Assembly: GCA_900696665.1 (NCBI GenBank)
Contig: CAADGY010000103.1
Coordinates: 1 to 59,090 of the forward strand
Direction of reading: 5' to 3'
Length of the DNA stretch: 59,090 nucleotides
From: an uncultured Acidobacteriota bacterium
GTDB lineage: Bacteria; Acidobacteriota; Terriglobia; Bryobacterales; Bryobacteraceae
The position numbers and the translations under genes are program-made. Shown piece after piece: positions 3,752 through 24,038 of the stretch (positions are counted from its first letter, which is position 1; every line of letters starts with the position of its first letter). The notes beneath the pieces are model-generated. The model was not told the DNA's origin, searched no databases, and was given only the letters and a program-made list of their open reading frames with translations.

Positions 3752-4450
3752 CAACAGACGTCCGAACCGTTCCGGAGTGTGATAGCTGGGGTTGTGGACT
3801 GGCTGCCAGGCGATGTACTTACGCGACGGCGGGCCACCCTCGATCCGATAGAGATTGAGGCGCAACTCATTGCCCGGCTTCGGAGTTCGAGCATCGATCG
3901 ACTTCCACGGAATTTGCATCTCACAGGTCCACACCTTCCGGCCGCGATCGATTTGCGTCTTGTACCGCATGCCGGAATTCCACTTCCAATCGACCTCTTT
4001 TCCTTTCTGGGAGCGGTCGACATCGAGATCAATGAACTCACCGTCCGGCGATACTTCGAATTCCTTGTAAAGGTTGATGTTCTCGAGGTCCGACCCGATG
4101 AAGACCTCGACGACGTCGTAGTCCCATAACCCCCAAGCTTCTTTCTCAGGCGTGGGATTTGGCCGGGGATACAAGGTTTCATACCGGCTGATGAACAGGA
4201 AGTAGAGATTTTGGCCCGTCCAGATACTGCGGACTTCCGTGCGCGCCTCGGGTAGCGGTTTGCCGAAAGGATCGCGTTCGGCATATACACCGGGCACGGC
4301 CTTCCACCGTTCGGAATCCGGGTCTGCCGAAGGAGCAAGGTCCGCTTCCACGCGGAAGCTCTTCATGATGCCGCCGCTTTGTTCCGCAAAAACGGCCCGC
4401 GCAAGACCTGCGATGAGTAAAGCAGAAACGCAACGCACGATCAGCTTCAT
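3731..4450 (-). CDS. Secreted CBM9-like carbohydrate-binding protein
   Basis: A 239-residue protein with an N-terminal signal peptide (MKLIVRCVSALLIAGLARAVFA). The mature part resembles the family 9 carbohydrate-binding-like (CBM9_1/DOMON-like) beta-sandwich: 'IWTGQNLYFLF' strand, 'WDYDVVEVFIG' (the DxVEvFi motif), 'YKEFEVSPDGEFIDLDV', and 'MQIPWKSI' near the end. Acidobacteria encode many stand-alone copies, probably periplasmic or surface sugar binders. No hydrolase is fused. The gene converges on the thioredoxin-like gene and is divergent from the MFS transporter at 4530, with which it shares an 80-base intergenic region. Confidence 0.75.
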   Translation of the reverse strand: MKLIVRCVSALLIAGLARAVFAEQSGGIMKSFRVEADLAPSADPDSERWKAVPGVYAERDPFGKPLPEARTEVRSIWTGQNLYFLFISRYETLYPRPNPTPEKEAWGLWDYDVVEVFIGSDLENINLYKEFEVSPDGEFIDLDVDRSQKGKEVDWKWNSGMRYKTQIDRGRKVWTCEMQIPWKSIDARTPKPGNELRLNLYRIEGGPPSRKYIAWQPVHNPSYHTPERFGRLLLADGLR

Positions 4451-4529
4451 GCGGGCAGTTTATCAGTTTCCATTGAAGCCATTCTTCTTGTTCCCGGCGC
4501 AAAACGCCTGTAAGCTGGAACAAGCCTCG

Positions 4530-5792
4530 ATGCCTCACCGCTATCGCGTTCTCATTTTTTTGTTTTTCCTGGTGTTCATTATGTACCTGGACCGGTTATG
4601 CATCGCTGTAGCCGGACCTCGCATGCAGCAGGACCTGGCCCTTGGTCCGCGCGAATGGGGTTGGGTGATGGGAGCATTCACGCTCGCCTATGCGCTGTTC
4701 GAAGTCCCCAGCGGGATGCTTGGTGACCGGATTGGCCCGCGTAGAGTGCTGACTCGAATCGTTCTGTGGTGGTCCGCGTTCACCGTGGCAACCGGACTGG
4801 TCTCCAGCCTGAAATCTTTGTTGATTGTTCGATTTCTTTTTGGAGCGGGAGAAGCGGGCGCCTTTCCCAACTGCACGGCAACCGTTTCCCGCTGGATTCC
4901 CGCCGTGGAGCGCGCGCGGTCTACCAGTGTCTTCTGGATGGCGACGTCCGTTGGAGGCGCCGCGACACCGCTGCTTGTCGTGCCCATCCAGCAGGCGTAT
5001 GGCTGGCGCGCCGCCTTCTACATTTTCGGTTCACTCGGCGTATTCTGGGCCGCCGCATGGCATTGGTGGTTTCGCGACACGCCGGCTGAGATGAAAGGCA
5101 TTACAGCCGCGGAGCGGCAGTTGATCGGTCATCAGCCGGCATCCCATCATCGCGGCCTGCCTTGGCGAGTTGTGCTTCACAACCGCAATTTTCAGCGCGT
5201 GCTCGTCATGTATCATCTGTACTGCTGGGGGGCTTACTTCTATCTTTCATGGCTGCCGACCTATCTTCAGACCGGCAGAGGCATGACGGAAGACCAGATG
5301 AAGATCGCGTCCGCGATGCCGCCGCTGGCCGGTCTGTTCGGCGTTCTCGCCGGTGGATTTTTGAGCGACCGGTTGTCGCGCAAATACTCGCTGCGTATGG
5401 CACGCTGCTCAATCGGCGCCGCATCGTTAATCGGCGCAGGGGCTTGCCTCATTGCGGCAACACTGGTTCGGGGAAACACCACGGCGGTTGTGTTGATGTC
5501 CGTTGGATTGGGAATCATGAACGCCATGCTGCCGGTTGCATGGTCGCTGTGCGTCGATCTCGGAAAACAACACTCCGGCGCTATTTCCGGCGCGATGAAT
5601 ATGGCCGGCCAGGCGGGATCGTTTATCTCTTCGGTTGCGTTCGGTTACTTTGTCGAGTGGTTCGGAAGCTACGACCTCGCCTTGATGCCGCTCGCGGCCA
5701 TGCTGATCCTGAGCGGTATCACGTTCGCCGCTATTGATCCCTCGGACCGCCTGATTCCAGAGGCGCAGGTTGCCGGGCTCGCCTCCCCATAA
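4530..5792 (+). CDS. MFS transporter, anion:cation symporter (hexuronate/glucarate)-like
   Basis: A 420-residue membrane protein with about 12 hydrophobic segments. The loop after helix 2 (GMLGDRIGPRRVLTR) is the MFS signature, and 'MYLDRLCIAVAGP' in helix 1 matches the ACS family (ExuT/GudP-like), which imports sugar acids with protons or sodium. Start ATG 4530 was chosen because it gives the family N-terminus; the longest frame, from 4239, would extend antisense through the CBM9-like gene. Substrate is inferred from family only, though the divergent CBM9-like gene fits a carbohydrate theme. Confidence 0.85.
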   Translation: MPHRYRVLIFLFFLVFIMYLDRLCIAVAGPRMQQDLALGPREWGWVMGAFTLAYALFEVPSGMLGDRIGPRRVLTRIVLWWSAFTVATGLVSSLKSLLIVRFLFGAGEAGAFPNCTATVSRWIPAVERARSTSVFWMATSVGGAATPLLVVPIQQAYGWRAAFYIFGSLGVFWAAAWHWWFRDTPAEMKGITAAERQLIGHQPASHHRGLPWRVVLHNRNFQRVLVMYHLYCWGAYFYLSWLPTYLQTGRGMTEDQMKIASAMPPLAGLFGVLAGGFLSDRLSRKYSLRMARCSIGAASLIGAGACLIAATLVRGNTTAVVLMSVGLGIMNAMLPVAWSLCVDLGKQHSGAISGAMNMAGQAGSFISSVAFGYFVEWFGSYDLALMPLAAMLILSGITFAAIDPSDRLIPEAQVAGLASP

Positions 5793-11378: not shown

Positions 11379-12596
11379 TTACTGCGTACCGAGTACTGTG
11401 GCCGCAACCCGGGCGTAGATCATCGCACATTCCACGATTCGGTCCGTGTCCACGAATTCCTTCGGTCCGTGCGAGATGGAAAGAAGACCGGGCCCATACG
11501 CGTACGCAGGGATTCCATGCCCGGCGTAGAACCTGATTTCGAGAAGTCCGGGACACAGCTCGAACTTTGGTGTTCTTCCGGTGACCTCGCGCACGTGGCT
11601 GCTCAGAGCCCGTCCGAGGGCCGTCGCCTCCGGCGTCCCGGATGGATGCCCTTCCTGCAACACCTCGACGTCCAACTTCACACCGGCTTGCCGCGCTTTG
11701 TCGAAGACCTCGAAGAGCGCGCGGCGCTCCTCCTCGTAATCCTCTTCCGGGTTCATCCGCCTGTCGACGGTGAACACACAGCGCCCGGGAACCACGTTAA
11801 AGTTCGAGCCGGCCTCGACTCGCCCCCCGATCAACATCAGCGAACGCCGTGCGGCCTCGGGCATGATGCGGAAGCGCGTCCGGCGCCGCGCAACCCGCCG
11901 CGCCAGGCGCTGAAGACCCGCCGCCACGTGAATGGCATCTTCGAAGGCGTTTCGTCCCTGGTGGAGGAGTCCGACATGTGCCTCCCGTCCGTGCACGGTC
12001 ACTCGCACGGTAAGAGCGCCCCGGTTTGCGTTCCAGACGACACCGCTGGTTGGTTCCGGAGTAAGCATGCCGATACCGTTGGCACCCAGGCGGCCGGCCG
12101 CCGCCAGAAACCCGGAGCCGCGCTGGCCGCCCGTCTCTTCATCGGGCACGAACACCAGCGCGACGTGGCCGTTCAACGGGACATGCAACCGCTTCAAAGC
12201 AACCGCCGCGTATAACATGCTGGCCAGACCGCCCTTCATATCAGCCGATCCGCGCCCGAAGAGCATGTTGCCTCTGAGCACCGGATTACACTGTCCGGGC
12301 GTTGTTACCGGCACCACGTCATAGTGGCCGGAGAAGTAGAGCGCACGTCTTCCCTTGCCAACACGGCTCAAGACGGCGGCGGCTCCGGACTGGTCGCGAA
12401 CACCCGCTCGAGGCCGGTACTTGATCGTGTCACACGGGAGATCGAGCGCCCGGAGCCGTGATTGGATAGCGCGCACGCATTCCCCGTACGCGGCGCCGGG
12501 CGGGTTCTCGGACGCGATGGCGACAAGCTCAGCCGTGAAATTGATCATGTCTCTCCGTAGCCGGCGTACACACGCATCGAGACCGTCAAGAGTCAT
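11379..12596 (-). CDS. M20 family metallopeptidase (ArgE/DapE/CPG2-like)
   Basis: A 405-residue cytoplasmic co-catalytic zinc hydrolase. Metal and catalytic motifs are intact: 'SGHYDVVP' (H91, D93), 'GRGSADMKGG' (D119, bridging Asp) and 'PDEETGG' (E153/E154, general base plus ligand), with a distal His in 'ISHGPKEF'. The dimerisation domain (about 185-300) includes 'VHGREAHVGLLHQGRNAFEDA'. Members deacylate amino acids or cleave small peptides; ArgE, DapE, carboxypeptidase G2 or aminoacylase activity cannot be told apart here. Confidence 0.85.
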   Translation of the reverse strand: MTLDGLDACVRRLRRDMINFTAELVAIASENPPGAAYGECVRAIQSRLRALDLPCDTIKYRPRAGVRDQSGAAAVLSRVGKGRRALYFSGHYDVVPVTTPGQCNPVLRGNMLFGRGSADMKGGLASMLYAAVALKRLHVPLNGHVALVFVPDEETGGQRGSGFLAAAGRLGANGIGMLTPEPTSGVVWNANRGALTVRVTVHGREAHVGLLHQGRNAFEDAIHVAAGLQRLARRVARRRTRFRIMPEAARRSLMLIGGRVEAGSNFNVVPGRCVFTVDRRMNPEEDYEEERRALFEVFDKARQAGVKLDVEVLQEGHPSGTPEATALGRALSSHVREVTGRTPKFELCPGLLEIRFYAGHGIPAYAYGPGLLSISHGPKEFVDTDRIVECAMIYARVAATVLGTQ

Positions 12597-12895: not shown

Positions 12896-13234
12896 TCAAA
12901 TCCGGCTCAGCTTCCAATAACTCAACGCGGCGGCAACGGCCATAGAGAGCACAAACACACCCAAGTTCGCCTTGACAACAGTCGATGGATCGGCGGGATA
13001 AAAGAATCGGATGAGGACAGCGCCAGCGGCGGTGACCGCCCCCGCAGCGAGCAAGGCGTAACCCATGAACCGGTTAGCCTCGTACCAGATTCTTGTATCG
13101 GACAGGGTTTTGGCGGTCCGGAAGCCGAAATACGCGTTGGGTTCCACGCGGCCCAGAATGAAGGGGATGCTCATGATGACGAACATCAATCCCAAGCCCG
13201 CATATAGCAACGTAACAATGTTGCGGTGAGCCAT
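12896..13234 (-). CDS. SdpI family small membrane protein
   Basis: A 112-residue integral membrane protein with three hydrophobic segments (about 7-27, 57-77, 88-106). The sequence between the first two, 'PNAYFGFRTAKTLSDTRIWYEANRF', is the conserved SdpI-family motif (PNxxxGxRt.....e.W...n...g). In Bacillus SdpI is an immunity/signalling protein against the SdpC toxin; most homologues have no known role and no toxin gene is near. It lies 24 bases downstream of the hydrolase gene on the same strand, so co-transcription is likely. Confidence 0.8.
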   Translation of the reverse strand: MAHRNIVTLLYAGLGLMFVIMSIPFILGRVEPNAYFGFRTAKTLSDTRIWYEANRFMGYALLAAGAVTAAGAVLIRFFYPADPSTVVKANLGVFVLSMAVAAALSYWKLSRI

Positions 13235-13258: not shown

Positions 13259-14872
13259 TCATCGGGTCCGAACCGTGCGGTCCAGAAACTCGAGTATCCG
13301 GTCTTTCACTGCGTCAGAAACATGCCGGGCCACGTAGTACTGTGACACATGCGGCTCACCCTCCACCGGCTTGAAGAAGTGGTCGAGTTCGTCGAACACG
13401 GCAAACTCTACTGGCACGCCGGCTTCAAGGGCAGTTTGATAAAGGGGCTGGGCGTCCTTTTCGAGGGATACCTGAAAATCCTTGGCTCCCTGGCAAATCA
13501 GCACAGGACATCGAACCTGCCGGATCTCCGCGAGCGGGTCCCGCGCCAGGTGATCCGCATACCATTTGCGGTGCCGCCGGGCCGCGTAGAAGCGGGCAGG
13601 CACGCGTTCCGGGGACCATTCGGCTTCCGTGATGACGACATTGACAAAACGGTCGAGTTCCTCAATTTGCTGCTGCAACTGTTCCGCGGAGTGTCCGAGC
13701 CAGCGTGCCTGTACGCGGAGCTGGTCCGCAAGCACCTCCGGCAGCTTCCGGCCCGCCATGGCGAGCAACACGAGCGCGCGCACGCGCGGGTTTGCGCGCG
13801 CAAGCATCACCGCGGCGAGCGCCCCCTGACTGTGCCCCACCAGCGCCACCTGAGAAGCATCGGCATCCGGTCTGCCGAACACACACTCCAGGACAGCCCT
13901 CGCATCGGCGACCGTTTCTTCAAAGCCGTATTCGAGGAACCCCTGGCCGAGCTCCGTTCCTCCGGTGCCGCGGGAATCGTACCGGACACCCAACCAGCCG
14001 TGCCCGGAGAGATAATCGACGATTTCATGGCTGCCAATGTCCACGGGGCCCGCAATACCGTGACGGTCCTTTGCTCCCGAGCCGGGGATGAAGAGCACGA
14101 TCGGGTGCGGTCCGCCCGACAACGGCACCGTGACGGTGGTGCCGAGCCGGACGTCTTCGGCCGGGCACGAAATCTCTTCGGCCACGAATCCGGCGTTTTC
14201 CGGAGGGTGATATTTAAGCGGCGGCCGGAGCAGATTGTCATTTCGCCACTCTGGCAGCGGTACATCCGCCGGCACCGCAACGAGCCCGTCTTTCGGGACC
14301 TCGAACCGCTGGAGAGAGCCATCTTCTCCGATCAGCAACCTTTCAAGAAAAGCAGACTCATACCAGCCACAACCCTTCGAAGATGGCGTCAGGCTGTATT
14401 CGAAGGCCGTCACGCCTCCAAATGAAAAGAAGGTTCCCGAAAACCCGCCTGCGAGTTCCTCGCGCGCCAGGCGGCAGAACAGATCGAGTTGACCGATGTT
14501 ATCGCCCAAAATGCAGAGGAACGGATCCAGGTCCAGTTCCCGGCGGCTGCCATCGGGGAGGTACAGAGTTGTACGCTCCTCGAATGCCGCGATGTTGACG
14601 TTGGAATCGGTCATGACCCTGTAACGCCGCGGATGGAGGTGTTCGTCACAGATCAATTCGATGCGGCTGCGGAGCTTTGGTCCAGCCAGCCCGGCACGCG
14701 CGGGATCGCTTTCACTCAGAAAGTGGATACGATACAGCGGAGCGGCGCCGGGAGTGGGGGGCGCGGCAACGCCTTCGTACACGGCCCAGTGCGTGGCGTA
14801 TTCGACGGCATTCAGCGAAAACACATAGCTGAAGCGTTGGCGGGGTGAGAAAGTATCCGGAAGACTTCTCAT
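13259..14872 (-). CDS. Alpha/beta hydrolase with an extra N-terminal domain
   Basis: A 537-residue protein. The N-terminal half (about 1-215) is beta-rich, of a type seen in proteins that report ester-linked lipids or sugars, without a named family. The C-terminal half is an alpha/beta hydrolase: oxyanion region 'FIPGSGAKDR', nucleophile elbow GHSQGA (Ser near residue 350), acid 'GAKDFQV' and His in 'ELDHFFK', so the catalytic triad is complete. No signal peptide is apparent, suggesting a cytoplasmic esterase or peptidase. It is upstream of the SdpI-family gene in the same direction and divergent from the RiPP-like cluster. Confidence 0.75.
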   Translation of the reverse strand: MRSLPDTFSPRQRFSYVFSLNAVEYATHWAVYEGVAAPPTPGAAPLYRIHFLSESDPARAGLAGPKLRSRIELICDEHLHPRRYRVMTDSNVNIAAFEERTTLYLPDGSRRELDLDPFLCILGDNIGQLDLFCRLAREELAGGFSGTFFSFGGVTAFEYSLTPSSKGCGWYESAFLERLLIGEDGSLQRFEVPKDGLVAVPADVPLPEWRNDNLLRPPLKYHPPENAGFVAEEISCPAEDVRLGTTVTVPLSGGPHPIVLFIPGSGAKDRHGIAGPVDIGSHEIVDYLSGHGWLGVRYDSRGTGGTELGQGFLEYGFEETVADARAVLECVFGRPDADASQVALVGHSQGALAAVMLARANPRVRALVLLAMAGRKLPEVLADQLRVQARWLGHSAEQLQQQIEELDRFVNVVITEAEWSPERVPARFYAARRHRKWYADHLARDPLAEIRQVRCPVLICQGAKDFQVSLEKDAQPLYQTALEAGVPVEFAVFDELDHFFKPVEGEPHVSQYYVARHVSDAVKDRILEFLDRTVRTR

Positions 14873-15042: not shown

Positions 15043-15071
15043 TTGACACCTTGGAGATGTGAGAGTATTCT
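15043..15071 (+). promoter_or_regulatory. Sigma70-type promoter of the RiPP-like cluster
   Basis: TTGACA at 15043-15048, a 17-base spacer and TATTCT at 15066-15071. It is 43 bases upstream of the ATG at 15115 of the first radical SAM gene. A perfect -35 with optimal spacing makes this one of the clearest promoters in the window. The surrounding 200 bases are noticeably AT-richer than the genes. Confidence 0.6.
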
Positions 15072-15114
15072 GGTCTGGCACCGGGCGCTGTATTGATATT
15101 TCTGATATCCGGCT

Positions 15115-16290
15115 ATGCGGGTTCTTGAAAGCCGTCAAATTACGGTCCTGACGACCAATACATGTACCGCGGCCTGTTCTCACTGCTGCATGAATTCCGG
15201 CCCGGAGCGCAAGGGCAGGCTAACCTTTACTCAGATCCGCGGCTGGATCGATGAAATTGCTCATCAAACCGAAATCCGAACCATTATCTTTGCCGGCGGA
15301 GAGCCGCTTTTGCTCGGGCCCGATATATTCGCCGCCATATCTCATGCCCGGTTGAGATGTCTTAGTACGCGCCTGGTGACCAACGCCTATTGGGCGCTCA
15401 ACGATGCTCGCGCCCGGGATATCTGCCAGAAGCTGGTGGATGCCGGACTCGACGAATTGAACATCAGCATCGACGACTTCCATCTGCCCTACGTCGATCC
15501 CCTGAACGTGCGGCGTGCGTTCCAGGCTGCCCGCCGGATGGATTTTCAATCCGTCGTAGTAGTGCATTGCACGGGTCCTACCACCACGTTCAACGATGAA
15601 CAACTTGATGCCCTGCTGGGTGAACAACTGCCCCGCCTGTTTGACGGTGCGCGCGAGCGGACGCTGTTTGATACCCCGGGGCGGCGGCCGTTTGTGTGCA
15701 TTTCCAACACGTCGCTTCAGGCGGTCGGCAGGGCAGGCCAGTGCCTTTTGAGCTCGGATATCGAAATGGATGAACGTTGGGAGCGGCGCTCACGCGAGAT
15801 CGGGGGATGCCCCTGGGCTGTTCGCTCCCCCGCCATAACACCAGATGGCCATCTCGTGAGCTGCTGTGGCTTCGAAGTGAGGGGAAACGAAGTGCTCGAT
15901 ATAGGCGATCTTGCGGGACATTCGTTGACCGAACTGCTCGATCAGGCCGACCGTGATCTGCCTCTGAACTGGATCGCACTCGAAGGTCCTTACGCTATTA
16001 TGGATTTTCTTAAGGCGCGGGATCCCACTCTTCCTTTCCACGAACGCTATGGCAGCTACTGCGAGCTATGCCAGCACATTGTTACGGACCCGGCCATCCA
16101 AAAGGCCCTATTCGACAACATGGACCGGCGTGTGTTTCACATCCTACAGCGCCGGGAGGACATCAAGGCCGTGCTCCAGCAGCAAGCTGAAGTCGAAGAC
16201 TGGCTGAGCGAACCTGCTATAGAGCCGCAACCTACCGGGCCTATGCCCGAATATCAGACTACCGTTACAGGAGGTCACGCGCATGGATAA
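15115..16290 (+). CDS. Radical SAM/SPASM-type enzyme of the RiPP-like cluster
   Basis: A 391-residue radical SAM enzyme. The [4Fe-4S] motif is C17-x3-C21-x2-C24 (with an extra C25). 'FAGGEPLLLGPDIF' is the GGE motif that contacts SAM, and 'VTNAYWA' and 'ELNISIDDFH' are barrel strands. A C-terminal cysteine set (GQC, GGCPW, SCCGF and YCELC, about residues 205-320) resembles SPASM/Twitch auxiliary clusters, typical of peptide-modifying enzymes. The last ~50 residues are Gln/Glu/Pro-rich. The next gene, the putative precursor, starts inside its 3' end (8-base overlap), tying the two. Possible reactions include epimerisation or cross-linking of the Ala-Asn tract; sequence alone does not decide. 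Confidence 0.85.
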   Translation: MRVLESRQITVLTTNTCTAACSHCCMNSGPERKGRLTFTQIRGWIDEIAHQTEIRTIIFAGGEPLLLGPDIFAAISHARLRCLSTRLVTNAYWALNDARARDICQKLVDAGLDELNISIDDFHLPYVDPLNVRRAFQAARRMDFQSVVVVHCTGPTTTFNDEQLDALLGEQLPRLFDGARERTLFDTPGRRPFVCISNTSLQAVGRAGQCLLSSDIEMDERWERRSREIGGCPWAVRSPAITPDGHLVSCCGFEVRGNEVLDIGDLAGHSLTELLDQADRDLPLNWIALEGPYAIMDFLKARDPTLPFHERYGSYCELCQHIVTDPAIQKALFDNMDRRVFHILQRREDIKAVLQQQAEVEDWLSEPAIEPQPTGPMPEYQTTVTGGHAHG

Positions 16291-16957
16291 ACGTAACCTG
16301 GCCAATTGGGAAGTTCTCGCCAAGATCCGCCAGGAAGTTGTCGCAAATCCCGAACTTCGCAAGAACTTCTACGATAATCCGATGGCCGCACTCGAACGCG
16401 CGGGCATGGATCTCGACCAGCCGTTGATTCCGGGCATTTCCGGCTCGTCCATCCGGCAGATTCTCGAAGAGAATCCAGGCATCGCCGCGGCCCTGCCGGA
16501 AACAGTGCAGACGGGAGCTGAATCTGCCCTCGCCGTGAGAGTCCGTGGCGAAGAGGTTGGCTTAGCCTTGGCGAACGCCAACGCCAACGCCAACGCCAAT
16601 GCCAATGCTAATGCCAATGCTAACGCCAACGCCAATGCCAATGCCAATGCCAACGCCAATACGAACGGCTTCGGCTTCATCCTGGAAACCGCCATCTGGC
16701 AGGACGGCCTGCGCGAGAAATTGTTCGCCGACGCGAAAGCGAATCTGGGTGCGCTGCGCATGAGCGAAGCGAAGGTCATAACGCTGGTGGACCGCATTGC
16801 CCGCGACGCCAGCCGCAAAACAAACGAGGTGAAGGTGAGGGGAGGCGTCGAACAAACCTTCGTGCACCGGCACGGCGACTTTAACGTCGAGGTGGGAGTG
16901 TTCGAAAATCCGCAGGGTCTGCGGACCATTCGCTCCGCGCGAGTGACAAAAGCTTAG
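16283..16957 (+). CDS. Putative RiPP precursor with (Ala-Asn)15 repeat
   Basis: A 224-residue protein in three parts. Residues 1-96 look like a leader, with an amphipathic 'LRKNFYDNPMAALERAGM' segment (about 25-43) reminiscent of NHLP/Nif11-type RiPP leaders. Residues 97-126 are 15 uninterrupted Ala-Asn pairs, followed by Thr-Asn and GFGF. Residues about 133-224 form an ordinary, charged C-terminal domain whose first helix (LREKLFADAKANLGALRM) echoes the leader motif. There is no cysteine and no signal peptide. A strong GGAGG about 10 bases before ATG 16283 supports the start, which overlaps the radical SAM gene by 8 bases. It could instead be a repeat-bearing accessory protein; the surrounding enzymes favour a substrate. 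Confidence 0.7.
   Translation: MDKRNLANWEVLAKIRQEVVANPELRKNFYDNPMAALERAGMDLDQPLIPGISGSSIRQILEENPGIAAALPETVQTGAESALAVRVRGEEVGLALANANANANANANANANANANANANANANANTNGFGFILETAIWQDGLREKLFADAKANLGALRMSEAKVITLVDRIARDASRKTNEVKVRGGVEQTFVHRHGDFNVEVGVFENPQGLRTIRSARVTKA
16571..16666 (+). repeat. Hexanucleotide (GCN-AAY) tandem repeat coding Ala-Asn
   Basis: Fifteen in-frame hexamers encode Ala-Asn, then ACGAAC encodes Thr-Asn. Unit variants are GCGAAC, GCCAAC, GCCAAT, GCTAAT and GCTAAC, so codons vary while the dipeptide never does. This suggests selection on the protein, though the DNA could still change length by slippage. Confidence 0.95.
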
Positions 16958-16992
16958 CTGCGCCGGGATTGTTCTGTCCGGATAACCTGCCA

Positions 16993-19005
16993 ATGGAACG
17001 CGTGCTGTTGCTCCATATGCCACTGGCAGTTCCGACGGTCCCCAATCTCGCCGTCGAGCTGCTTGCCGGTGTGCTTGCGCGATCCGGAATCGAGGCCGAT
17101 GTTTTCTACGGAACGTGCCGGCTGGCGCGCACGCCCGCTATCAGTTCCTACATACACAGCATCACAGGGGGCGTTATTTTCACGCCCCTCTATTACTCCA
17201 GCGAATCCCCGGAGTCAGTGGCACGCCGGCTGATCGATTGTCCGAAAGCGGTTTCGGAATTGTTCGGGAACTTCAAGCGCTTCCGGGCGGAGCGCCGGGA
17301 TGCGCCCGCCGAATGGGGTGTCCCGCGTAGGAGCGTTGGGTCGGAATGGCCCTTCGGCTCGGACTGCGACGAGTTGCTTGCTGACGTGCTCACGCACATG
17401 GATGCCGCGCGGCTCTGCCTGAAACGCTGTCTCGAGGACATCCCTGTGGGGCGATACGACGTTTTTGCGTTCTCTTTGATGTTCGACGCGCAAAAACTTG
17501 CTTCTCTCGCGCTGGCCAAATGGCTGAAGGAGAGAGAACCACATGCGGCTGTGCTGTTCGGCGGCACCGCCTGCGATGGCGACATGGGCTACGAACTGCT
17601 TCAGCGTTTTCCCTGTGTCGATGCTGTCGCGCAAGGAGAGGCCGATCTGACCATCGCCGGCGCAATCCGCGCGCTTCGCGGCGAGCGGCCCCTCGAAAGC
17701 ATCCCCGGACTGCTCTTCCGCTTCGGAACCACTGTCACCGCCTCGCCTCCCGCTCCCAAGCTCGAGCAACTTGACGCTCTGCCGGTGCCCGATTACACGA
17801 GTTTCCTTCAGCAGTTGTCCGCGAGCGACTGGAAACACGACGATCCGTTCATCCTGTTTGAGGCCTCACGCGGTTGCTGGTGGGGCGAAAGGCATCATTG
17901 CAAATTTTGCGGGCTTCGAGCCGATGGGCTTGCCTACAGGCGGAAGTCTCCCGCGCGCGTTCGTGCGGAAATCCAGGAACTGGCCTCGCGCTATCCTGTG
18001 CACCGCGCGCTCTACTCCACCGACGCCATTCTGGACTACCGGGCCCTTCGCAATCTCATGCCAACGCTGCCCGGCCTTGCCGCGCGGCACCAATGGAAGC
18101 TCTTCTTTGAACTCAAGTCCAACCTGCACAAGCACGAAGTAGCACTACTTTCCGAGTCCGGCGTCACTACCGTTCAGCCGGGCATAGAAACCTTCAGCGA
18201 CCGCGTACTCGCGCTCATGGACAAGGGGAATCGCGGAATCCGTCAAGTCCAGTTCCTCAAGTGGCTCGCCTCTTACGGCATTGGCATCATCTACAACATC
18301 ATCCTCGGCACCCCCGGAGAGACACCCGAAGACTACGACGAAATGACTCGCTTGCTTCCGTATCTCTGGCACCTGCCGCCGCCGGCTTCGGTGAACTATC
18401 TCAGCCTCGACAAATTCAGCCCCTACATGCGGCATCCGGAAGCCTATGGTTTTCGCGACGTGCGGGCTGTCACCGTCTACGGGCAACTGTTTCCGGACCC
18501 TTGTGTGAACCTCTCCCGCATCGCCTACAAGTTCGAGTACTGCTCCAACGAGATGGACAACCCTCAATTGCGGCAGGCATGGGGAGAGTTCGAGCTCGCT
18601 CTGCAGGCCTGGCGCGAGGAGCACGACTTCAGGCAGCTATTGATACGCGATTCTCCATCTGGCCTCGAGATTATGGAGAAAGACCATGGTGAATCGACCC
18701 GCGTGCGGCTGCATGGAGAGGCTGCCCGCCTCTACCGGTTTTGTGATGCTGCAAGAAGCTTCCGCGCGATCCGCTCCGCGTTCCCGCTGGTTCCCGAGAG
18801 TGTGCTCCGGCTACGCCTCGCTCTGTGGACGGGACGCCGGTGGATGTATGCCTCCGCGTCTGATGAATTCCTCGCCCTCGCGGTAGAGGTCGACCCGCCT
18901 CCGAGCGGCGCCAGCGCGCGGGTCGCGATAGACGAGGAGCCTGTCCCATGCAGTCCGCAGCACCTCGTTTCCATTTCGACAATCGGAGGAGAAATGCAAA
19001 CATGA
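16993..19005 (+). CDS. B12-binding radical SAM RiPP C-methyltransferase-like enzyme (first copy)
   Basis: A 670-residue enzyme: an N-terminal cobalamin-binding-like Rossmann region (about 1-230, with 'VLFGGTACDGDMG' and 'AVAQGEAD'), then a radical SAM domain. Its cluster motif is 'SRGCWWGERHHCKFCGL' (C295, C303, C306), with the longer CWWG-x4-C-x2-C spacing that marks the RiPP maturation radical SAM C-methyltransferase family ('bacteriocin maturation radical SAM protein 1'; polytheonamide PoyB/PoyC are related in function). 'NIILGTPGETPEDYDEM' follows in the barrel, then a winged C-terminal segment. Expected role: methylation of unactivated carbons of the precursor. The longest frame starts at TTG 16969; ATG 16993 matches the second copy's N-terminus. 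Its stop overlaps the next start (ATGA). Confidence 0.85.
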   Translation: MERVLLLHMPLAVPTVPNLAVELLAGVLARSGIEADVFYGTCRLARTPAISSYIHSITGGVIFTPLYYSSESPESVARRLIDCPKAVSELFGNFKRFRAERRDAPAEWGVPRRSVGSEWPFGSDCDELLADVLTHMDAARLCLKRCLEDIPVGRYDVFAFSLMFDAQKLASLALAKWLKEREPHAAVLFGGTACDGDMGYELLQRFPCVDAVAQGEADLTIAGAIRALRGERPLESIPGLLFRFGTTVTASPPAPKLEQLDALPVPDYTSFLQQLSASDWKHDDPFILFEASRGCWWGERHHCKFCGLRADGLAYRRKSPARVRAEIQELASRYPVHRALYSTDAILDYRALRNLMPTLPGLAARHQWKLFFELKSNLHKHEVALLSESGVTTVQPGIETFSDRVLALMDKGNRGIRQVQFLKWLASYGIGIIYNIILGTPGETPEDYDEMTRLLPYLWHLPPPASVNYLSLDKFSPYMRHPEAYGFRDVRAVTVYGQLFPDPCVNLSRIAYKFEYCSNEMDNPQLRQAWGEFELALQAWREEHDFRQLLIRDSPSGLEIMEKDHGESTRVRLHGEAARLYRFCDAARSFRAIRSAFPLVPESVLRLRLALWTGRRWMYASASDEFLALAVEVDPPPSGASARVAIDEEPVPCSPQHLVSISTIGGEMQT

Positions 19006-21035
19006 GCGAAAAGGTCCTCTTGCTTACCATGCCCTGGGCTACGCCCGTGCATCCTTCTCTCGCCCTGGGACTGCTGAGTGCGATCCTGCGCGATCACGGG
19101 ATCGAAAGCGAGTGTCTCTATGGCAATCTGCTGCTGCCTCGCCGCGCGGCTTCCAGCGTCTATGCCATTCAGGACCCGGGTCATTATGAAGACCGCAGCG
19201 CAGGACTCGCTTTTGCGCCCTACCTGTATCCTCAAGTCACACCCGCGCAGATCGCCGAGGAGGTCGCCGAGAGGCACCTCGCGATTGTCGGCCGGGAAGG
19301 TCACCTCGAAACCTCACATTGGCGCCTGGACGTAGCCGGGCAGGCCACGCGTGACAAGCTCGTCGAGCAGACCCTCGAGGACATTGAAGGCGCGGGCATC
19401 TGCCTGGAGCGGTGCATGCAGCGGATTCAGGCAGGAAGTTACGACATCGTAGGCATGTCGCTGACTTTCGAAACGCAACTGATCGGCTCGCTCGCGCTTG
19501 CGCGCCGCATCAGACAGTTCCGGCCGGATATGCGAATCATCCTCGGCGGCGCGGCCTGCACGTCCAACCAGGGCGTTGCGATTCTGAAGGCGTTCGACAC
19601 GATTGATGCCGTGTGTCTCGGCGAAGCCGACGCGATCGTTGTACCACTGATCGAAGGGCTTCGCACGAAGCCCTCGAAGCTCGCGAACATTCCAGGAATC
19701 GCCTACCGCGGCATGGATGGCGTTTTCGCCACACGCCAGCCTGAACCCATACGCGATCTGGATTGGATTCCCCGTCCCAATTACGACCCCTACGTGGAAC
19801 AGAAAGCCGCGAGTGAATGGACCGGCTCGCCCACCGTGCTGCTCTTCGAGACCTCACGAGGATGCTGGTGGGGTGAGAAACATCTATGCAGCTTCTGCGG
19901 TCTGAATGCCGAGACGCTGACCTACCGGAGCAAGAGCGCGCAGCGTGTCATGCAGGACATCGCGGGCCTGTGCGAACGCTACGATACCACCGACGGGCTG
20001 CAAGCCGTCGACAACATTTTCGATCCGCGCTACTTCGCCGATTTGGCGCCGAGGCTCGCCGCTTTCCAGAAGCAGACGCCGGTTACCCTGTTCTTCGAAA
20101 TCAAATCCAATATCAATCTCAACCAGATGTATCAGCTTGCCGCCAGCGGGTTCGGCACGCTGCAACCCGGCATTGAGGCGTTCAACGACCACATCCTCTC
20201 GCTGATGGACAAAGGCGCCAATACCATCCAGCAGATCAACTTCATCAAATGGGCGCACCAGTTGGGTATCAGCCCTACTTACAACATACTCATGCGCAAC
20301 CCCGGCGAGACTGCCCAGGACTATCGCGACATGATCGCCCTGCTCCCGTACATCGAGCATCTACCGCCGCCGAACGGGATCGCGAACATGCAACTCGAAC
20401 GGTATAGCCCGTACTTTCTGAACCCGGCGAAGTACGGCATTCGCCACGTGCGCCCGAAACATCACTACCGGCTGATGTTCCCCGATGAACGTGTCGACAT
20501 CGATGAGCTTGTGTATCAGTTCGATTTCGATCACGACGAGCTCGACGCTCCAGATCTCGTTGCTGCACGCCGTGATTTTCTCATTGCGACATTGAACTGG
20601 AAAGCTGCATTCAAAGTCCACCGGCTCATCTATCACCGCTGGAACTCCAAAATTCTCATTCTGGACCGGCGTGGAAAGTCCGACCATTCGGAATGGCTCA
20701 GCGGACTCGCAGCCGATGTCTTCCTTTTCCTCGACCAAGGGCATCCGTTCAACGTGATCCGCAGGCGCTTTCCCACCGTCCCGGAGCAAGTGCTGCAAGC
20801 GTTTCTCGATCGCATGGTGGCGGCAAAGTATGTTTACCGGCACAAGCCGAAAGATACCTACGTGACGGTTGCGCTCCGCGTGTACGAAGATCCGGAACAA
20901 TGCCGGAAGGAGATGGACGCCGCAGTGGAGCAATCACAGGCGAGGCGGCGTAATCGCGCGGCAGTGCCCCACGGACTGGTTGCTCTCGAGCCGGCGTTCG
21001 CCTCCGCACCCGCACCCGGTTCCTGTGGTTCCTGA
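19002..21035 (+). CDS. B12-binding radical SAM RiPP C-methyltransferase-like enzyme (second copy)
   Basis: A 677-residue paralogue of the preceding enzyme, collinear over its length: N-terminal B12-binding-like domain ('IILGGAACTSNQG', 'AVCLGEADA'), cluster motif 'SRGCWWGEKHLCSFCGL' (C288, C296, C299), 'NPGETAQDYRDM' in the barrel and a similar C-terminal helical region. A GGAGGAGA element about 9 bases before ATG 19002 and the 4-base overlap with the previous stop support this start and translational coupling. Two divergent copies suggest different target residues or positions on one substrate. The C-terminal ~40 residues are Ala/Arg/Pro-rich and unshared. Its stop lies 7 bases from that of the convergent methyltransferase gene. 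Confidence 0.85.
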   Translation: MSEKVLLLTMPWATPVHPSLALGLLSAILRDHGIESECLYGNLLLPRRAASSVYAIQDPGHYEDRSAGLAFAPYLYPQVTPAQIAEEVAERHLAIVGREGHLETSHWRLDVAGQATRDKLVEQTLEDIEGAGICLERCMQRIQAGSYDIVGMSLTFETQLIGSLALARRIRQFRPDMRIILGGAACTSNQGVAILKAFDTIDAVCLGEADAIVVPLIEGLRTKPSKLANIPGIAYRGMDGVFATRQPEPIRDLDWIPRPNYDPYVEQKAASEWTGSPTVLLFETSRGCWWGEKHLCSFCGLNAETLTYRSKSAQRVMQDIAGLCERYDTTDGLQAVDNIFDPRYFADLAPRLAAFQKQTPVTLFFEIKSNINLNQMYQLAASGFGTLQPGIEAFNDHILSLMDKGANTIQQINFIKWAHQLGISPTYNILMRNPGETAQDYRDMIALLPYIEHLPPPNGIANMQLERYSPYFLNPAKYGIRHVRPKHHYRLMFPDERVDIDELVYQFDFDHDELDAPDLVAARRDFLIATLNWKAAFKVHRLIYHRWNSKILILDRRGKSDHSEWLSGLAADVFLFLDQGHPFNVIRRRFPTVPEQVLQAFLDRMVAAKYVYRHKPKDTYVTVALRVYEDPEQCRKEMDAAVEQSQARRRNRAAVPHGLVALEPAFASAPAPGSCGS

Positions 21036-21042
21036 GCACAGA

Positions 21043-22164
21043 TCAACGCGAAATGTACCAGAACCCTGCGTGATCCTCGTAGTGCCTCGTCAACTCGAGA
21101 CCGGGCTTCCGGTCGTCTCGTAAGATGGCAAGGAAGAACAGATAAAGGTGCGTTGCGCCGAGCGTCCGCAGGTGCGCTTCGAGCGCGTCTCTCACTGGTT
21201 CGACATCGAGGTGCGCCGCCGCCGCACACGTCCAGGCCAGACCATCGAACATGTGGGCGCCGCGGACCAGCGGCAGCGCGGATGGGATGGTCATCCGAAT
21301 CCGCAGTCCGTTGCGTTCCGCCAACTCACGTAACTCGGCTTCGCATCCCGGTGCGTCCCAATCGCCCGTGCAGGTGCCGATGATCTGGCAGACTCCACCG
21401 GGCTTGAGCGCAGCCGGCAGTCCCTTCAATATCCGGCGCGTAATATCGAGCCCGTCCGCTCCGCCGTGCCCCACAAACGGGTATGGCAGATCCGGTGGAA
21501 AGGGCAACAGAGGCGGGTTGGCCGAGATAAAGTCAAATTCGAGGCCGGGCACCGCCGAGAACAGATCGCCTGTCCGGATCTCGACCCGGTCCTCGAGCCC
21601 GTTCATCACCACATTCAACTCCGCGTGCGCGGCCGCAAGGGGATTCACATCAACGGCGATTACACGGCTGGCTCTTCCGCTGCACACGAGTGCCTGAATG
21701 CCCGGCCCCGTACACAAGTCCAGACACACATCACCGCGAGACGGCATCAGATGCAGCGCTAGCGCGGCCGAGTCCTCTCCGAAGTAAGCGATAGGATTCA
21801 CTCCGGGACGCTGTGCGAAGACGAGGAACCCGAGTAATGGCAGGAGCACCATATTGCCAGTGTGCAGTTTCTCGCCCTCCGGCAGCAGAATGCTCAAGCT
21901 GATGAGCGCATCGATCTCCTGATCAGAGAATACGAGCGCGAGTTCGTCCCGGGCGACACGGCGCCCCAGCAGAAAAACGGAAACCAGAACCCGCAAGGAC
22001 GCCGGCAGCAAATCCAGATCCGCCGCCCAAAGGTCTACGCGCAAATTCAGCGGCCCATAGATGGCATATGCATCCACGTAGCCTTCACCCGCAAGCACCC
22101 GCGGCAGATTCTTCAATGCCGCAATGCCGGCGGCTAACGTAGTCGTGCGCTGAGCACCTGTCAT
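21043..22164 (-). CDS. Class I SAM-dependent methyltransferase (PrmC/small-MTase-like)
   Basis: About 373 residues. An N-terminal ~140-residue helical domain precedes a Rossmann methyltransferase: motif I 'CLDLCTGPGIQAL', acidic strand-2 end 'VIAVDVNP', and motif IV 'ANPPLLPFP'. The NPP motif is characteristic of enzymes that methylate amide or exocyclic nitrogens (PrmC on Gln, adenine N6 and RsmC/RlmG-type enzymes). In this cluster a methyltransferase acting on Asn side-chain amides is an attractive idea, paralleling the Asn N-methylation of polytheonamides, but this is inference. A housekeeping rRNA enzyme remains possible. ATG 22164 follows the kinase-like stop by 4 bases; an upstream ATG at 22188 would overlap it. 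Confidence 0.7.
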   Translation of the reverse strand: MTGAQRTTTLAAGIAALKNLPRVLAGEGYVDAYAIYGPLNLRVDLWAADLDLLPASLRVLVSVFLLGRRVARDELALVFSDQEIDALISLSILLPEGEKLHTGNMVLLPLLGFLVFAQRPGVNPIAYFGEDSAALALHLMPSRGDVCLDLCTGPGIQALVCSGRASRVIAVDVNPLAAAHAELNVVMNGLEDRVEIRTGDLFSAVPGLEFDFISANPPLLPFPPDLPYPFVGHGGADGLDITRRILKGLPAALKPGGVCQIIGTCTGDWDAPGCEAELRELAERNGLRIRMTIPSALPLVRGAHMFDGLAWTCAAAAHLDVEPVRDALEAHLRTLGATHLYLFFLAILRDDRKPGLELTRHYEDHAGFWYISR

Positions 22165-22168
22165 TGTT

Positions 22169-22729
22169 TCACCATCCCAGCACTGCAAGCAGGCGGCTGC
22201 AAAACGCGCGATTGTGTCCCGCCACGCTGGCCGGGGTTCCCGGATAGAACCAACCGTAATCGAGCCAGGTCAGCCGCTGCCCACACCACCTGAAGTTCTC
22301 GAGCTTGCCGTCGCCCATGGACAGGCCTGCCTTCGTACACTCGTCGCAGAACGCCGACAACTGCCGAGCGAAGCGGGCAGGCTCTGGCAAAGGCAATCGC
22401 TTTCGGCGGTTGTCCTCTACCCAGGCTCTGCATATCCAGTGACGGAACGGGCTAGCGGCGCGCCCGTTTGAAAACGAAGTATCTGCCGTCCCGAAAGCGA
22501 ATAACTCGGGCACAAAGCGGCTCCTGCACAGTACTTGGAGCGCATGCCTCTCGTTATCGAATATCGACGGTTCGGAAAACAGCTTGACCGCGGCCGGCAC
22601 CCCCTTCCATCGAACACGAATCACAGGACCTGTACCCAGCAACGCATCGTCTTCGACGTCCGCGATAGCCGGATCGAGGCCGAGGACCCAGTTCCGTTGA
22701 GTGATGTCCAGCGTGTAAGGTACCGGCAT
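22169..22729 (-). CDS. Minimal protein-kinase-like protein
   Basis: A 186-residue protein with the skeleton of a kinase in compact form: glycine-poor loop, 'AAVKLF' with K49 (the VAIK lysine), E60 in 'FDNERHAL', hinge near 'HWICRAWVEDN', catalytic loop 'MGDGKLENF' (D140, N145; the usual His is replaced) and 'LDYG' (D157) in place of DFG. It is far shorter than typical Ser/Thr kinases and lacks much of the C-lobe after the activation loop, closer to Kdo/APH-type small kinases. It may phosphorylate a small molecule or the peptide, or bind ATP without catalysis. It lies 11 bases after the pseudo-radical-SAM stop and 4 bases before the methyltransferase start, so the three form an operon. Confidence 0.6.
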   Translation of the reverse strand: MPVPYTLDITQRNWVLGLDPAIADVEDDALLGTGPVIRVRWKGVPAAVKLFSEPSIFDNERHALQVLCRSRFVPELFAFGTADTSFSNGRAASPFRHWICRAWVEDNRRKRLPLPEPARFARQLSAFCDECTKAGLSMGDGKLENFRWCGQRLTWLDYGWFYPGTPASVAGHNRAFCSRLLAVLGW

Positions 22730-22740
22730 GGTTTAACTGG

Positions 22741-23988
22741 TCAGGCACGAATTCCCGCACCGCCCGCCTGTTCACGTTCCAGCACGTGCGCCAAGCTGGG
22801 ACCGCGCAGCCGCAACATCGGGTTCAGAAGTTGAAGCAACTCGAAAACCTCATTCACCGGTATCCGGCCAGACGGGCCCGGAGGCGCCCCCGGTACTGAA
22901 GCCGGCACGCTCCCGTCGAACCATGGCACAGCTCCTGAAACAAACATGCGCTCCCACGGTTCGGATGGGATGTAACCCGGCGATCCCGGCACGTTGTACC
23001 ACCACTCGCAGCGCATGTCGGTGATGCCGTGCTTTGCCGCTATTCCCGCGACATGATTTATGGACGCCACGGTGTCGTGTGCGTCTTCACCGGGTGCGCC
23101 GGCAAGAAGATGCACGGTGGTGTTCGCGGCCACGCCGGCACGCTCGATCTCGCGCACCGCGGCGGCGAATCGCTGCCGGGACTCGTCATCGCGCATGTTA
23201 TCAGGCAGCAGTTCGAGCCACTTCACTTGCAGCAGGCTCAAGCTGGATGAAACGGCTTCGTCCAGAACATCATCCGGCGATATCCGCAGTGCGAACCACG
23301 GCGCTACATCGTGCTGCCGCAGGACCGCCATGCTGAGTTCACCCAGCAGGTCCATTCCCGCCGCATTCCATCCTCCCGCCGGTCTATCGGCAACCATTAG
23401 CGGTGTGCGGCACGATCCGAGCGGGGCCGTCATAGACCGCATCCAGACCGCAAACTCCTCCGCACTCCGCCGCTGCTGCGATGGAGCGTTTGCCGGATGC
23501 GGCTGCGCTTCCAACGGGAATCCGAACACTTCATGAGTGGTAATGCCGATTTCCCATCTCGGCCAGAGAGCCAGGGCAGAGTCGTCCGGTAGTGGCAGTT
23601 CTTTCCAGCATTGCGGAACGAAAGAAGCTAACTCCGCGGCATGCTGGAAGCCCACAGAGGCTACCTGCTCCGGAAAGCAGTCGAGTAGCGGTCCTAGCGC
23701 GTAGAGCGGGCGGTCTCGCTTCGAGAGCAACTCCACGGACCGGAGTGCCGCACTCCAGTTAAAAGCGTCAAGCCACGTGACAACGGCATCCGCTTGTTCC
23801 AGGTGGAGCAGGGAGGTTTCACCAGGGTCCCAGTGAGTCGATGGGAGCAACTCCACGTCGACACCGGCCGAGCGCGCCCGGCCGGCCAGCGACACCAGCC
23901 CGGGCGGCGCACTTTCAGCACGAATCGCCACCCCACGGCTGTCAACGACAGGTATTTCAACAAAGGCCAGCCGCACCCGCCACCTCAC
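22741..23988 (-). CDS. Radical-SAM-like protein lacking the Fe-S cysteines
   Basis: A 415-residue protein whose layout follows B12-type radical SAM proteins: an N-terminal 'PPGLVSLAGRARSAGVDVELL' segment (cobalamin-binding-like), a middle 'RRSAEEFAVWMRSM', and a C-terminal barrel-like half with 'VKWLELLPDNMRDDESRQRF', 'AGVAANTTVHLLAGAPGEDAHDTVASI' equivalent to the usual 'iiGlPgEt.ed' strand. Where CxxxCxxC should occur ('WEIGITTHEVFGFPLEAQP') there is no cysteine, and only four scattered cysteines exist in the whole protein. The reading frame is intact, so it is probably a pseudoenzyme with a scaffolding or recognition role, not a broken gene. It starts with GTG at 23988 and heads the minus-strand operon. 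Confidence 0.6.
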   Translation of the reverse strand: MRWRVRLAFVEIPVVDSRGVAIRAESAPPGLVSLAGRARSAGVDVELLPSTHWDPGETSLLHLEQADAVVTWLDAFNWSAALRSVELLSKRDRPLYALGPLLDCFPEQVASVGFQHAAELASFVPQCWKELPLPDDSALALWPRWEIGITTHEVFGFPLEAQPHPANAPSQQRRSAEEFAVWMRSMTAPLGSCRTPLMVADRPAGGWNAAGMDLLGELSMAVLRQHDVAPWFALRISPDDVLDEAVSSSLSLLQVKWLELLPDNMRDDESRQRFAAAVREIERAGVAANTTVHLLAGAPGEDAHDTVASINHVAGIAAKHGITDMRCEWWYNVPGSPGYIPSEPWERMFVSGAVPWFDGSVPASVPGAPPGPSGRIPVNEVFELLQLLNPMLRLRGPSLAHVLEREQAGGAGIRA

Positions 23989-24010
23989 AAGCTCGCATGA
24001 ACTTCTCTCT

Positions 24011-24038
24011 AATATACCCGCGTGAGATAGAAATACAA
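24011..24038 (-). promoter_or_regulatory. Candidate promoter of the minus-strand cluster operon
   Basis: On the minus strand TTGTAT (24038-24033), a 16-base spacer and TATATT (24016-24011). It sits about 22 bases upstream of the GTG start at 23988 in an AT-rich patch. The -35 is imperfect, so this is a moderate call. Confidence 0.4.

Follow-up and report, generated by a model that had tools for sequence, protein, structure and literature searches.

We analysed a 59,090-nucleotide stretch of an uncultured Acidobacteriota bacterium (contig CAADGY010000103.1 of assembly GCA_900696665.1), hereafter the window, in which a compact gene cluster surrounds an open reading frame (ORF) coding for a run of alternating Ala and Asn residues. 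The cluster is predicted to be a pathway for a ribosomally synthesized and post-translationally modified peptide (RiPP), with the features listed below.

12896..13234, minus strand: SdpI/YfhL family membrane protein, predicted self-immunity (PF13630, 49.7 bits, cut-off 28.2)
13259..14872, minus strand: alpha/beta hydrolase (S33/EstD-like), with a possible processing role (PF12146, 51.6 bits)
15115..16290, plus strand: E1, EpeE/YydG-type radical S-adenosylmethionine (SAM) protein, predicted peptide epimerase (from PDB matches and cysteines)
16283..16957, plus strand: precursor protein, comprising a leader (residues ~1-75), the tract and a C-terminal domain (~138-224), with relatives P0001-P0013
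16571..16666, plus strand: predicted core, (Ala-Asn)15-Thr-Asn, precursor residues 97-128
16993..19005, plus strand: C1, B12 radical SAM C-methyltransferase, TIGR03975 (ATG start proposed; TTG at 16969 in the ORF list)
19002..21035, plus strand: C2, B12 radical SAM C-methyltransferase, TIGR03975 (ATG start proposed; 18948 in the ORF list)
21043..22188, minus strand: MT, AerE-type methyltransferase, predicted Asn side-chain N-methylation
22169..22729, minus strand: 186-residue protein matching no family, placed in the cluster by position only
22741..23988, minus strand: PSE, degenerate B12 radical SAM relative without the cluster motif, likely accessory

E1, the precursor gene, C1 and C2 are closely packed on the plus strand, with two overlapping pairs; the stop codon of E1 overlaps the start of the precursor gene, whose ATG is preceded by AGGAGG. 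This packing had been noted in a preliminary description of the locus, as had the convergent minus-strand operon formed by PSE, the 186-residue protein and MT (21043-23988). The operon and its NPP methyltransferase are indeed present, but the labels given to the other two products did not hold: the "cysteine-less" radical SAM-like protein, PSE, has four cysteines and lacks the radical SAM motif, and the "kinase-like" protein has no Pfam match up to E 10 and no NCBIfam match at E 0.1. The cluster also reaches upstream of the plus-strand genes, to the hydrolase and SdpI-family genes. No island in GC content was seen at the cluster.

The precursor and its Ala-Asn tract

The precursor is a 224-residue protein devoid of cysteine, in line with the preliminary description, and carries 16 Asn, one at every second position, in residues 97-128. 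In 5000 shuffles of the precursor residues the alternation score never exceeded 7, against 10 for the actual sequence. The tract DNA is a six-base tandem repeat, and in the encoded protein a six-residue Asn spacing is satisfied in three registers simultaneously. A confident predicted domain (residues ~138-224) follows the tract, so that the core is internal in this precursor.

By BLAST, P0001, P0002 and P0003 share 38, 32 and 34% identity with the window precursor, while P0004 and P0005 match it by phmmer (E 8.8e-11 and 1.5e-9). All ten relatives P0004-P0013 carry a precomputed PF19394 (DUF5969) assignment. Leader, Asn tract and C-terminal domain are common to P0001-P0012, and P0013 begins shortly before the tract. 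The sole difference between the metagenome precursors P0002 and P0003 is 16 residues of tract length. The PF19394 model scores 13.5 bits on the window precursor, below its cut-off of 25, and matches 9 of 20 precursors, including that of the window, at E ≤ 0.1 (best E 6.9e-41); its search of 297 genomes of the window's phylum, own genome included, gave no match. A search of 396 genomes of the phylum with the precursor itself gave matches in six, its own and five others, full-length only in its own; six places in the other five fall on or around the tract. Scans of viral and genome collections with the precursor alignment confirmed 0 of 383 and 0 of 586 matched stretches, respectively, the sole pattern drawn being the tract.

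The window precursor stays below the cut-off of the NHLP leader model TIGR03793 (13.1 versus 50.9 bits) and also below that of Os17, a distant model in its clan (20.5 versus 40 bits). Assignment to the proteusins was rejected because NHLP-type leader and C-terminal core both fail, and assignment to the sactipeptides or lanthipeptides because the precursor has no Cys. A reading of the tract as an orphan linker was also considered and rejected.

Predicted modifying enzymes and accessory proteins

EpeE/YydG are the only PDB matches of E1 at E 0.001 (51.8 bits), the significant EpeE alignment spanning E1 residues 8-143 only. The CxxxCxxC motif (C17/C21/C24) is conserved, and five further cysteines (C232, C250, C251, C316 and C319) are invariant across 26 rows of relatives. 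In the weak alignment of the second-cluster cysteines, which is below significance, C250/C251 and C316/C319 align with the CC and CxxC of EpeE. Cys223 is the proposed hydrogen donor of EpeE (PMC8326336), and on this sub-significant alignment Cys251 of E1 would be its counterpart. The preliminary description had called E1 a SPASM-type enzyme; the conserved extra cysteines are nonetheless present although the Pfam SPASM model stays under its cut-off (15.6 versus 21.5 bits), and the PDB matches place the protein with the EpeE/YydG type. A search of 61 related genomes with E1 at E 1e-20 recovered its own genome only.

MT, an NPP methyltransferase and AerE homologue, is predicted to share the AerE fold over its full length. 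Its residues Y135, D139 and N224 correspond to Y137, D141 and N231, which were mutated in AerE structures, and are conserved in 16/16, 15/16 and 16/16 rows. MT is predicted to methylate Asn side-chain amides of the partner precursor. The Asn configuration accepted by AerE is reportedly D. An epimerase partner is expected, since AerE is described as acting on a single Asn configuration (PMC11285071) and PoyE on D-Asn produced by epimerisation (PMC9505594). C1 and C2, the two B12 radical SAM genes of the preliminary description, score 467.8 and 511.9 bits on TIGR03975 (cut-off 281.85), and both contain the Cx7CxxC motif described for PoyC (PMC11285071); C2 had no match in the PDB.

The 6.04 Mb assembly contains no SdpI match besides that at 12896-13234. 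The hydrolase gene adjoins the SdpI gene both in the window and in locus L018 (the related loci are described below). A search of a large protein database with PSE returned three proteins, and one against the PDB at E 1 returned none. Relatives of PSE occur in L018 and in L104, where the gene lies directly upstream of an MT on the same strand, on the L019 contig; one relative, P0122, scores 30.1 bits on the B12-binding model PF02310, just below the cut-off of 32.1. The two methyltransferases of L104 (8288-9439 and 13330-14631) differ in motif, one reading NLPP and the other NPP, the latter by eye closer to AerE. No relative of the 186-residue protein was found among the 5035 ORFs of the loci or in a search of two genomes (best E 0.3).

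Related loci in other genomes

The comparison covered 81 loci, namely 76 from a genome scan with the E1 alignment and five plasmid stretches. MT is present in 17 of them, 16 of which also hold E1, and in 15 of these 16 the two genes lie on one strand, overlapping or separated by less than 400 bp. Epimerase-methyltransferase pairs occur in Myxococcota, Pseudomonadota, Actinomycetota and Deinococcota, and also in one more genome from the window's phylum, most of them with precursors having Asn every six residues. Organisms with MT loci include Myxococcota, Vibrio ruber, Actinosynnema, Propionibacterium, Phaeobacter, Rhizobium leguminosarum, Thermus aquaticus and Collinsella, as well as a Klebsiella plasmid. 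Equal contig sizes for P0001/P0018 (18921), P0003/P0035 (33252) and P0006/P0039 (5071) suggest, without proving it, that precursor and E1 relatives share a contig in each pair.

An alternation score of at least 6 was found in 10 of the 3346 ORFs of at least 80 residues in the 81 loci, and all ten belong to the precursor set of epimerase loci, two properties that are not independent because the precursor hidden Markov model (HMM) contains the tract. Repeat proteins without radical SAM neighbours, which the preliminary description had raised as a counterexample, were thus not met as far as tested, in a count that does not sample precursors elsewhere because the loci were fetched via the epimerase or the methyltransferase. 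A scan made without any HMM found runs of at least four Asn at spacing six in 16 of the 3346 ORFs: 12 are precursor ORFs, from 12 loci and within 3.7 kb of an E1 ORF, and the remainder are three epimerase ORFs (L053, L054 and L065) and one ORF of L036. The same scan at spacings of 3, 4, 5, 7, 8 and 9 gave 3, 6, 3, 2, 3 and 4 ORFs. Across 20 precursors, a hand-chosen set (15 of 28 precursor-like ORFs plus those of the window, P0001, P0002, P0005 and P0007), Asn pairs at lag 6 numbered 159 versus 28.9 in shuffles, the highest of lags 1-12. The precursors of L018 and L019 end with or just after the tract.

An HMM built from the window sequence and those of L093 and L094 detected SdpI-like ORFs in 9 of 17 MT loci (7 of 15 once the two HMM seed loci are set aside) and in none of the 64 loci that lack MT; related loci count as independent in the Fisher tests. 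L095 holds a DUF1648 protein in place of SdpI. Eight of the 81 loci hold a relative of the hydrolase. A quick E1 tree grouped the window, with support, in a set of 17 rows. Including the window, 14 of these are MT-linked; the others are L019, whose contig has MT genes further on, L021 and L026. Three MT-linked rows (L057, L060 and L094) fall outside this set. As an out-of-sample test, 396 genomes of the phylum were searched with MT only (E 1e-20), which returned three: the window's own, G377 and G246. Within the 17.5 kb around the G377 match lie MT, E1, two SdpI ORFs and a precursor in which four Asn follow one another at period six.

Contigs L018 and L017 of G454 (Deltaproteobacteria SJ525, Myxococcota) together encode eight C2-like B12 radical SAM ORFs, four epimerase ORFs and three AerE-type methyltransferase ORFs; L018 also has a period-six Asn precursor, and the two contigs possibly belong to one very large hypermodified RiPP cluster. 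On plasmid pmk4 of Klebsiella sp. PL-2018 (L093, 6883-15767), the order of genes is SdpI, precursor, epimerase, methyltransferase, hypothetical protein, acyltransferase, HlyD adaptor and peptidase-containing ATP-binding cassette (ABC) transporter, so that this locus has an exporter not seen in the window. Among distant precursors, twin-arginine or lipoprotein-like signal starts were recognised by eye at L094 2599-3501, at L105 9888-10853 and in the L046, L048, L056 and L062 precursors.

Proposed pathway and alternatives

We consider it likely that the locus makes a beta-helical, nanotube-like RiPP working like polytheonamide and aeronamide. This view rests on which genes are present, their homologies and predicted fold, the conservation of the neighbourhood and of the residues mutated in AerE, and the Asn spacing; we infer the chemistry and activity of the product. 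Our best reading is a polytheonamide/aeronamide-like pathway that uses another type of epimerase, a leader outside the NHLP type and a core that is internal, with a folded domain C-terminal to it. The preliminary description's proposal of a RiPP pathway that includes C-methylation by radical SAM enzymes and likely acts on the Ala-Asn tract is supported; its view that the combination resembles no described RiPP is not, as an AerE homologue, an epimerase and PoyB/PoyC-type C-methyltransferases follow polytheonamide/aeronamide logic. Its observations are hence partly confirmed and its interpretation partly supported. Relative to that logic, novelty lies in the predicted type of epimerase, the leader, the internal position of the core and the SdpI protein.

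In the order we propose, the leader and the C-terminal domain would present the tract to the enzymes. E1 would likely epimerise alternate residues, probably the Asn, from the L to the D form. MT would likely N-methylate the side-chain amides of the (D-)Asn, and C1 and C2 would likely methylate unactivated carbons, for this core chiefly Ala beta-carbons. With D and L residues alternating, the chain would coil into a beta-helix with about six residues to the turn, and its Asn would line up between successive turns in hydrogen-bonded ladders, of which the window product would have three per turn. Proteolytic release, for which the alpha/beta hydrolase is a candidate, would yield a membrane-active product, from which the SdpI-family protein likely shields the producer.

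With the aeronamide and polytheonamide pathways the window shares an AerE/PoyE-type Asn N-methyltransferase, TIGR03975-type C-methyltransferases with Cx7CxxC, a radical SAM protein predicted to epimerise, Asn every six residues and an alpha/beta hydrolase. Methylated Asn are given at positions 16, 22 and 28 of polytheonamide B and, putatively, 25, 31, 37, 41 and 43 of aeronamide (PMC11285071), PoyJ is described with an alpha/beta hydrolase fold (PMC9505594) and PoyD epimerises in a 1,3-pattern (PMC8326336). Unlike these pathways, the window has a non-NHLP leader, an internal core with a folded domain after it and an SdpI-family protein, and no LanM-type dehydratase is found among its cluster genes. 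E1, with EpeE as its only PDB match and five further invariant cysteines, may differ from the PoyD type of epimerase (one cluster, C-terminal RiPP recognition element).

The epipeptides (EpeX/EpeE, Bacillus) share with the window the epimerase family, as judged by sequence, and an expected membrane-directed product. The window differs by its long leader-tract-domain precursor, by its N- and C-methyltransferases, by the number of target residues, probably many in its tract versus two in epipeptides (PMC8326336), and by an SdpI-family protein where epipeptides have EpeAB autoimmunity (PMC13343845). An SdpI-family protein beside the gene of a presumed membrane-active peptide also recalls the SDP toxin and its SdpI immunity protein, but no SdpA, SdpB or SdpC gene was recognised in the window cluster, and the SdpC model matches a single precursor (L022), only at E 0.031. 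Members of DUF5969 (PF19394), recorded as a family of unknown function, can be aligned with the window precursor in all three parts, leader, tract and C-terminal domain, but the precursor stays below the family cut-off.

We lean somewhat towards a broader proposal: that a phylum-crossing RiPP class, partly filed under DUF5969, makes Asn-ladder beta-helical nanotubes by a separate route, with an EpeE-type two-cluster epimerase and an AerE-type methyltransferase, a leader not of the NHLP type, a core flanked by two domains and immunity from an SdpI-family protein, of which the window would be the simplest form, poly(D-Asn-L-Ala) with at most 16 methylated Asn. This would provide a function hypothesis for DUF5969, and suggests that bacteria from Rhizobium to Thermus may encode nanotube-like peptides via an epimerase other than the proteusin type. 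The Ala-Asn core would be a minimal case, provided by nature, for testing the requirements of a beta-helix, with one small apolar and one polar residue, and the recurrent SdpI-family protein a testable immunity partner for channel-like peptides as well as a handle for genome mining. The papers searched do not name DUF5969; no description of this gene combination was found in titles and abstract openings, a search outside which lay the subscription papers on aeronamide genome mining and AerE structure, so that a prior description is possible.

Several observations weigh against the polytheonamide/aeronamide-like pathway. E1 scores 92.2 bits on the YydG model TIGR04078, below its cut-off of 300. 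The window MT sits in the convergent operon and not beside E1 as at most other loci, and the L104 methyltransferase adjoining the PSE relative has NLPP where NPP is expected. The 13 of 28 precursor-like ORFs left out of the hand-chosen set (the second ORF of L026, two each of L055, L057 and L060, and those of L046, L048, L049, L056, L061 and L062) all have alternation scores of at most 4. Among MT loci, L057 and L060 have Asn-poor precursor-like ORFs without an Asn run, and no precursor was found in L017, L020 and L096; in L030 and L033 the Asn runs at spacing six are only three long. SdpI is found in only 9 of 17 MT loci, with longer matches in L060 and L097 (266 and 194 residues). No ABC peptide exporter was recognised among the nine window ORFs scanned (30-59 kb lay outside the scan). 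Membrane insertion is uncertain, since a peptide of Ala and Asn alone seems much more polar than those of the polytheonamide type. The best fold match of the precursor C-terminal domain is a CdiA toxin.

In a quite improbable alternative, the tract would be only a flexible linker and the protein a toxin whose RelE/CdiA-like C-terminal domain acts on RNA. That domain is absent from the epimerase-linked precursors L018, L019, L022, L027 and L094, and no His or Tyr is conserved in at least 13 of its 19 rows, though K/R and D/E positions are; a linker needs neither period-six Asn across phyla nor an epimerase and an Asn methyltransferase, and the associated putative immunity protein is a membrane protein. 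A RiPP of other chemistry, with E1 as a crosslinking or other SPASM-like enzyme and a methylated tract that forms no beta-helix, is less far-fetched but still unlikely: the YydG score and the restricted extent of the significant EpeE alignment, with its second-cluster part sub-significant, would fit it, whereas the tract has no Cys, Tyr or Trp for crosslinks, Cys250, Cys251, Cys316 and Cys319 are invariant in 26 rows and match the CC and CxxC of EpeE in the weak alignment, and the Asn-configuration preference of AerE/PoyE leads one to expect an epimerase partner. We give very little credence to a functionless low-complexity repeat born of slippage beside coincidental neighbours. The six-base repeat and the P0002/P0003 length difference are what slippage would leave, but the enzyme set recurs in other phyla, and L018, L022 and L027 hold the Asn spacing while the intervening residues vary, a pattern that slippage would not produce. 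In L022 and L027 nearly all tract Asn stand at every sixth position, which DNA slippage explains poorly.

Neighbour genes were called as mechanical ORFs, with over-long starts in places. An M20 family peptidase (11379-12596, minus strand, 106.5 bits) lies 300 bp past the SdpI gene on the same strand, a major facilitator superfamily transporter is found at 4239-5792, and another radical SAM domain (E 1e-16) is encoded near the start of the window, at 368-859 on the plus strand.

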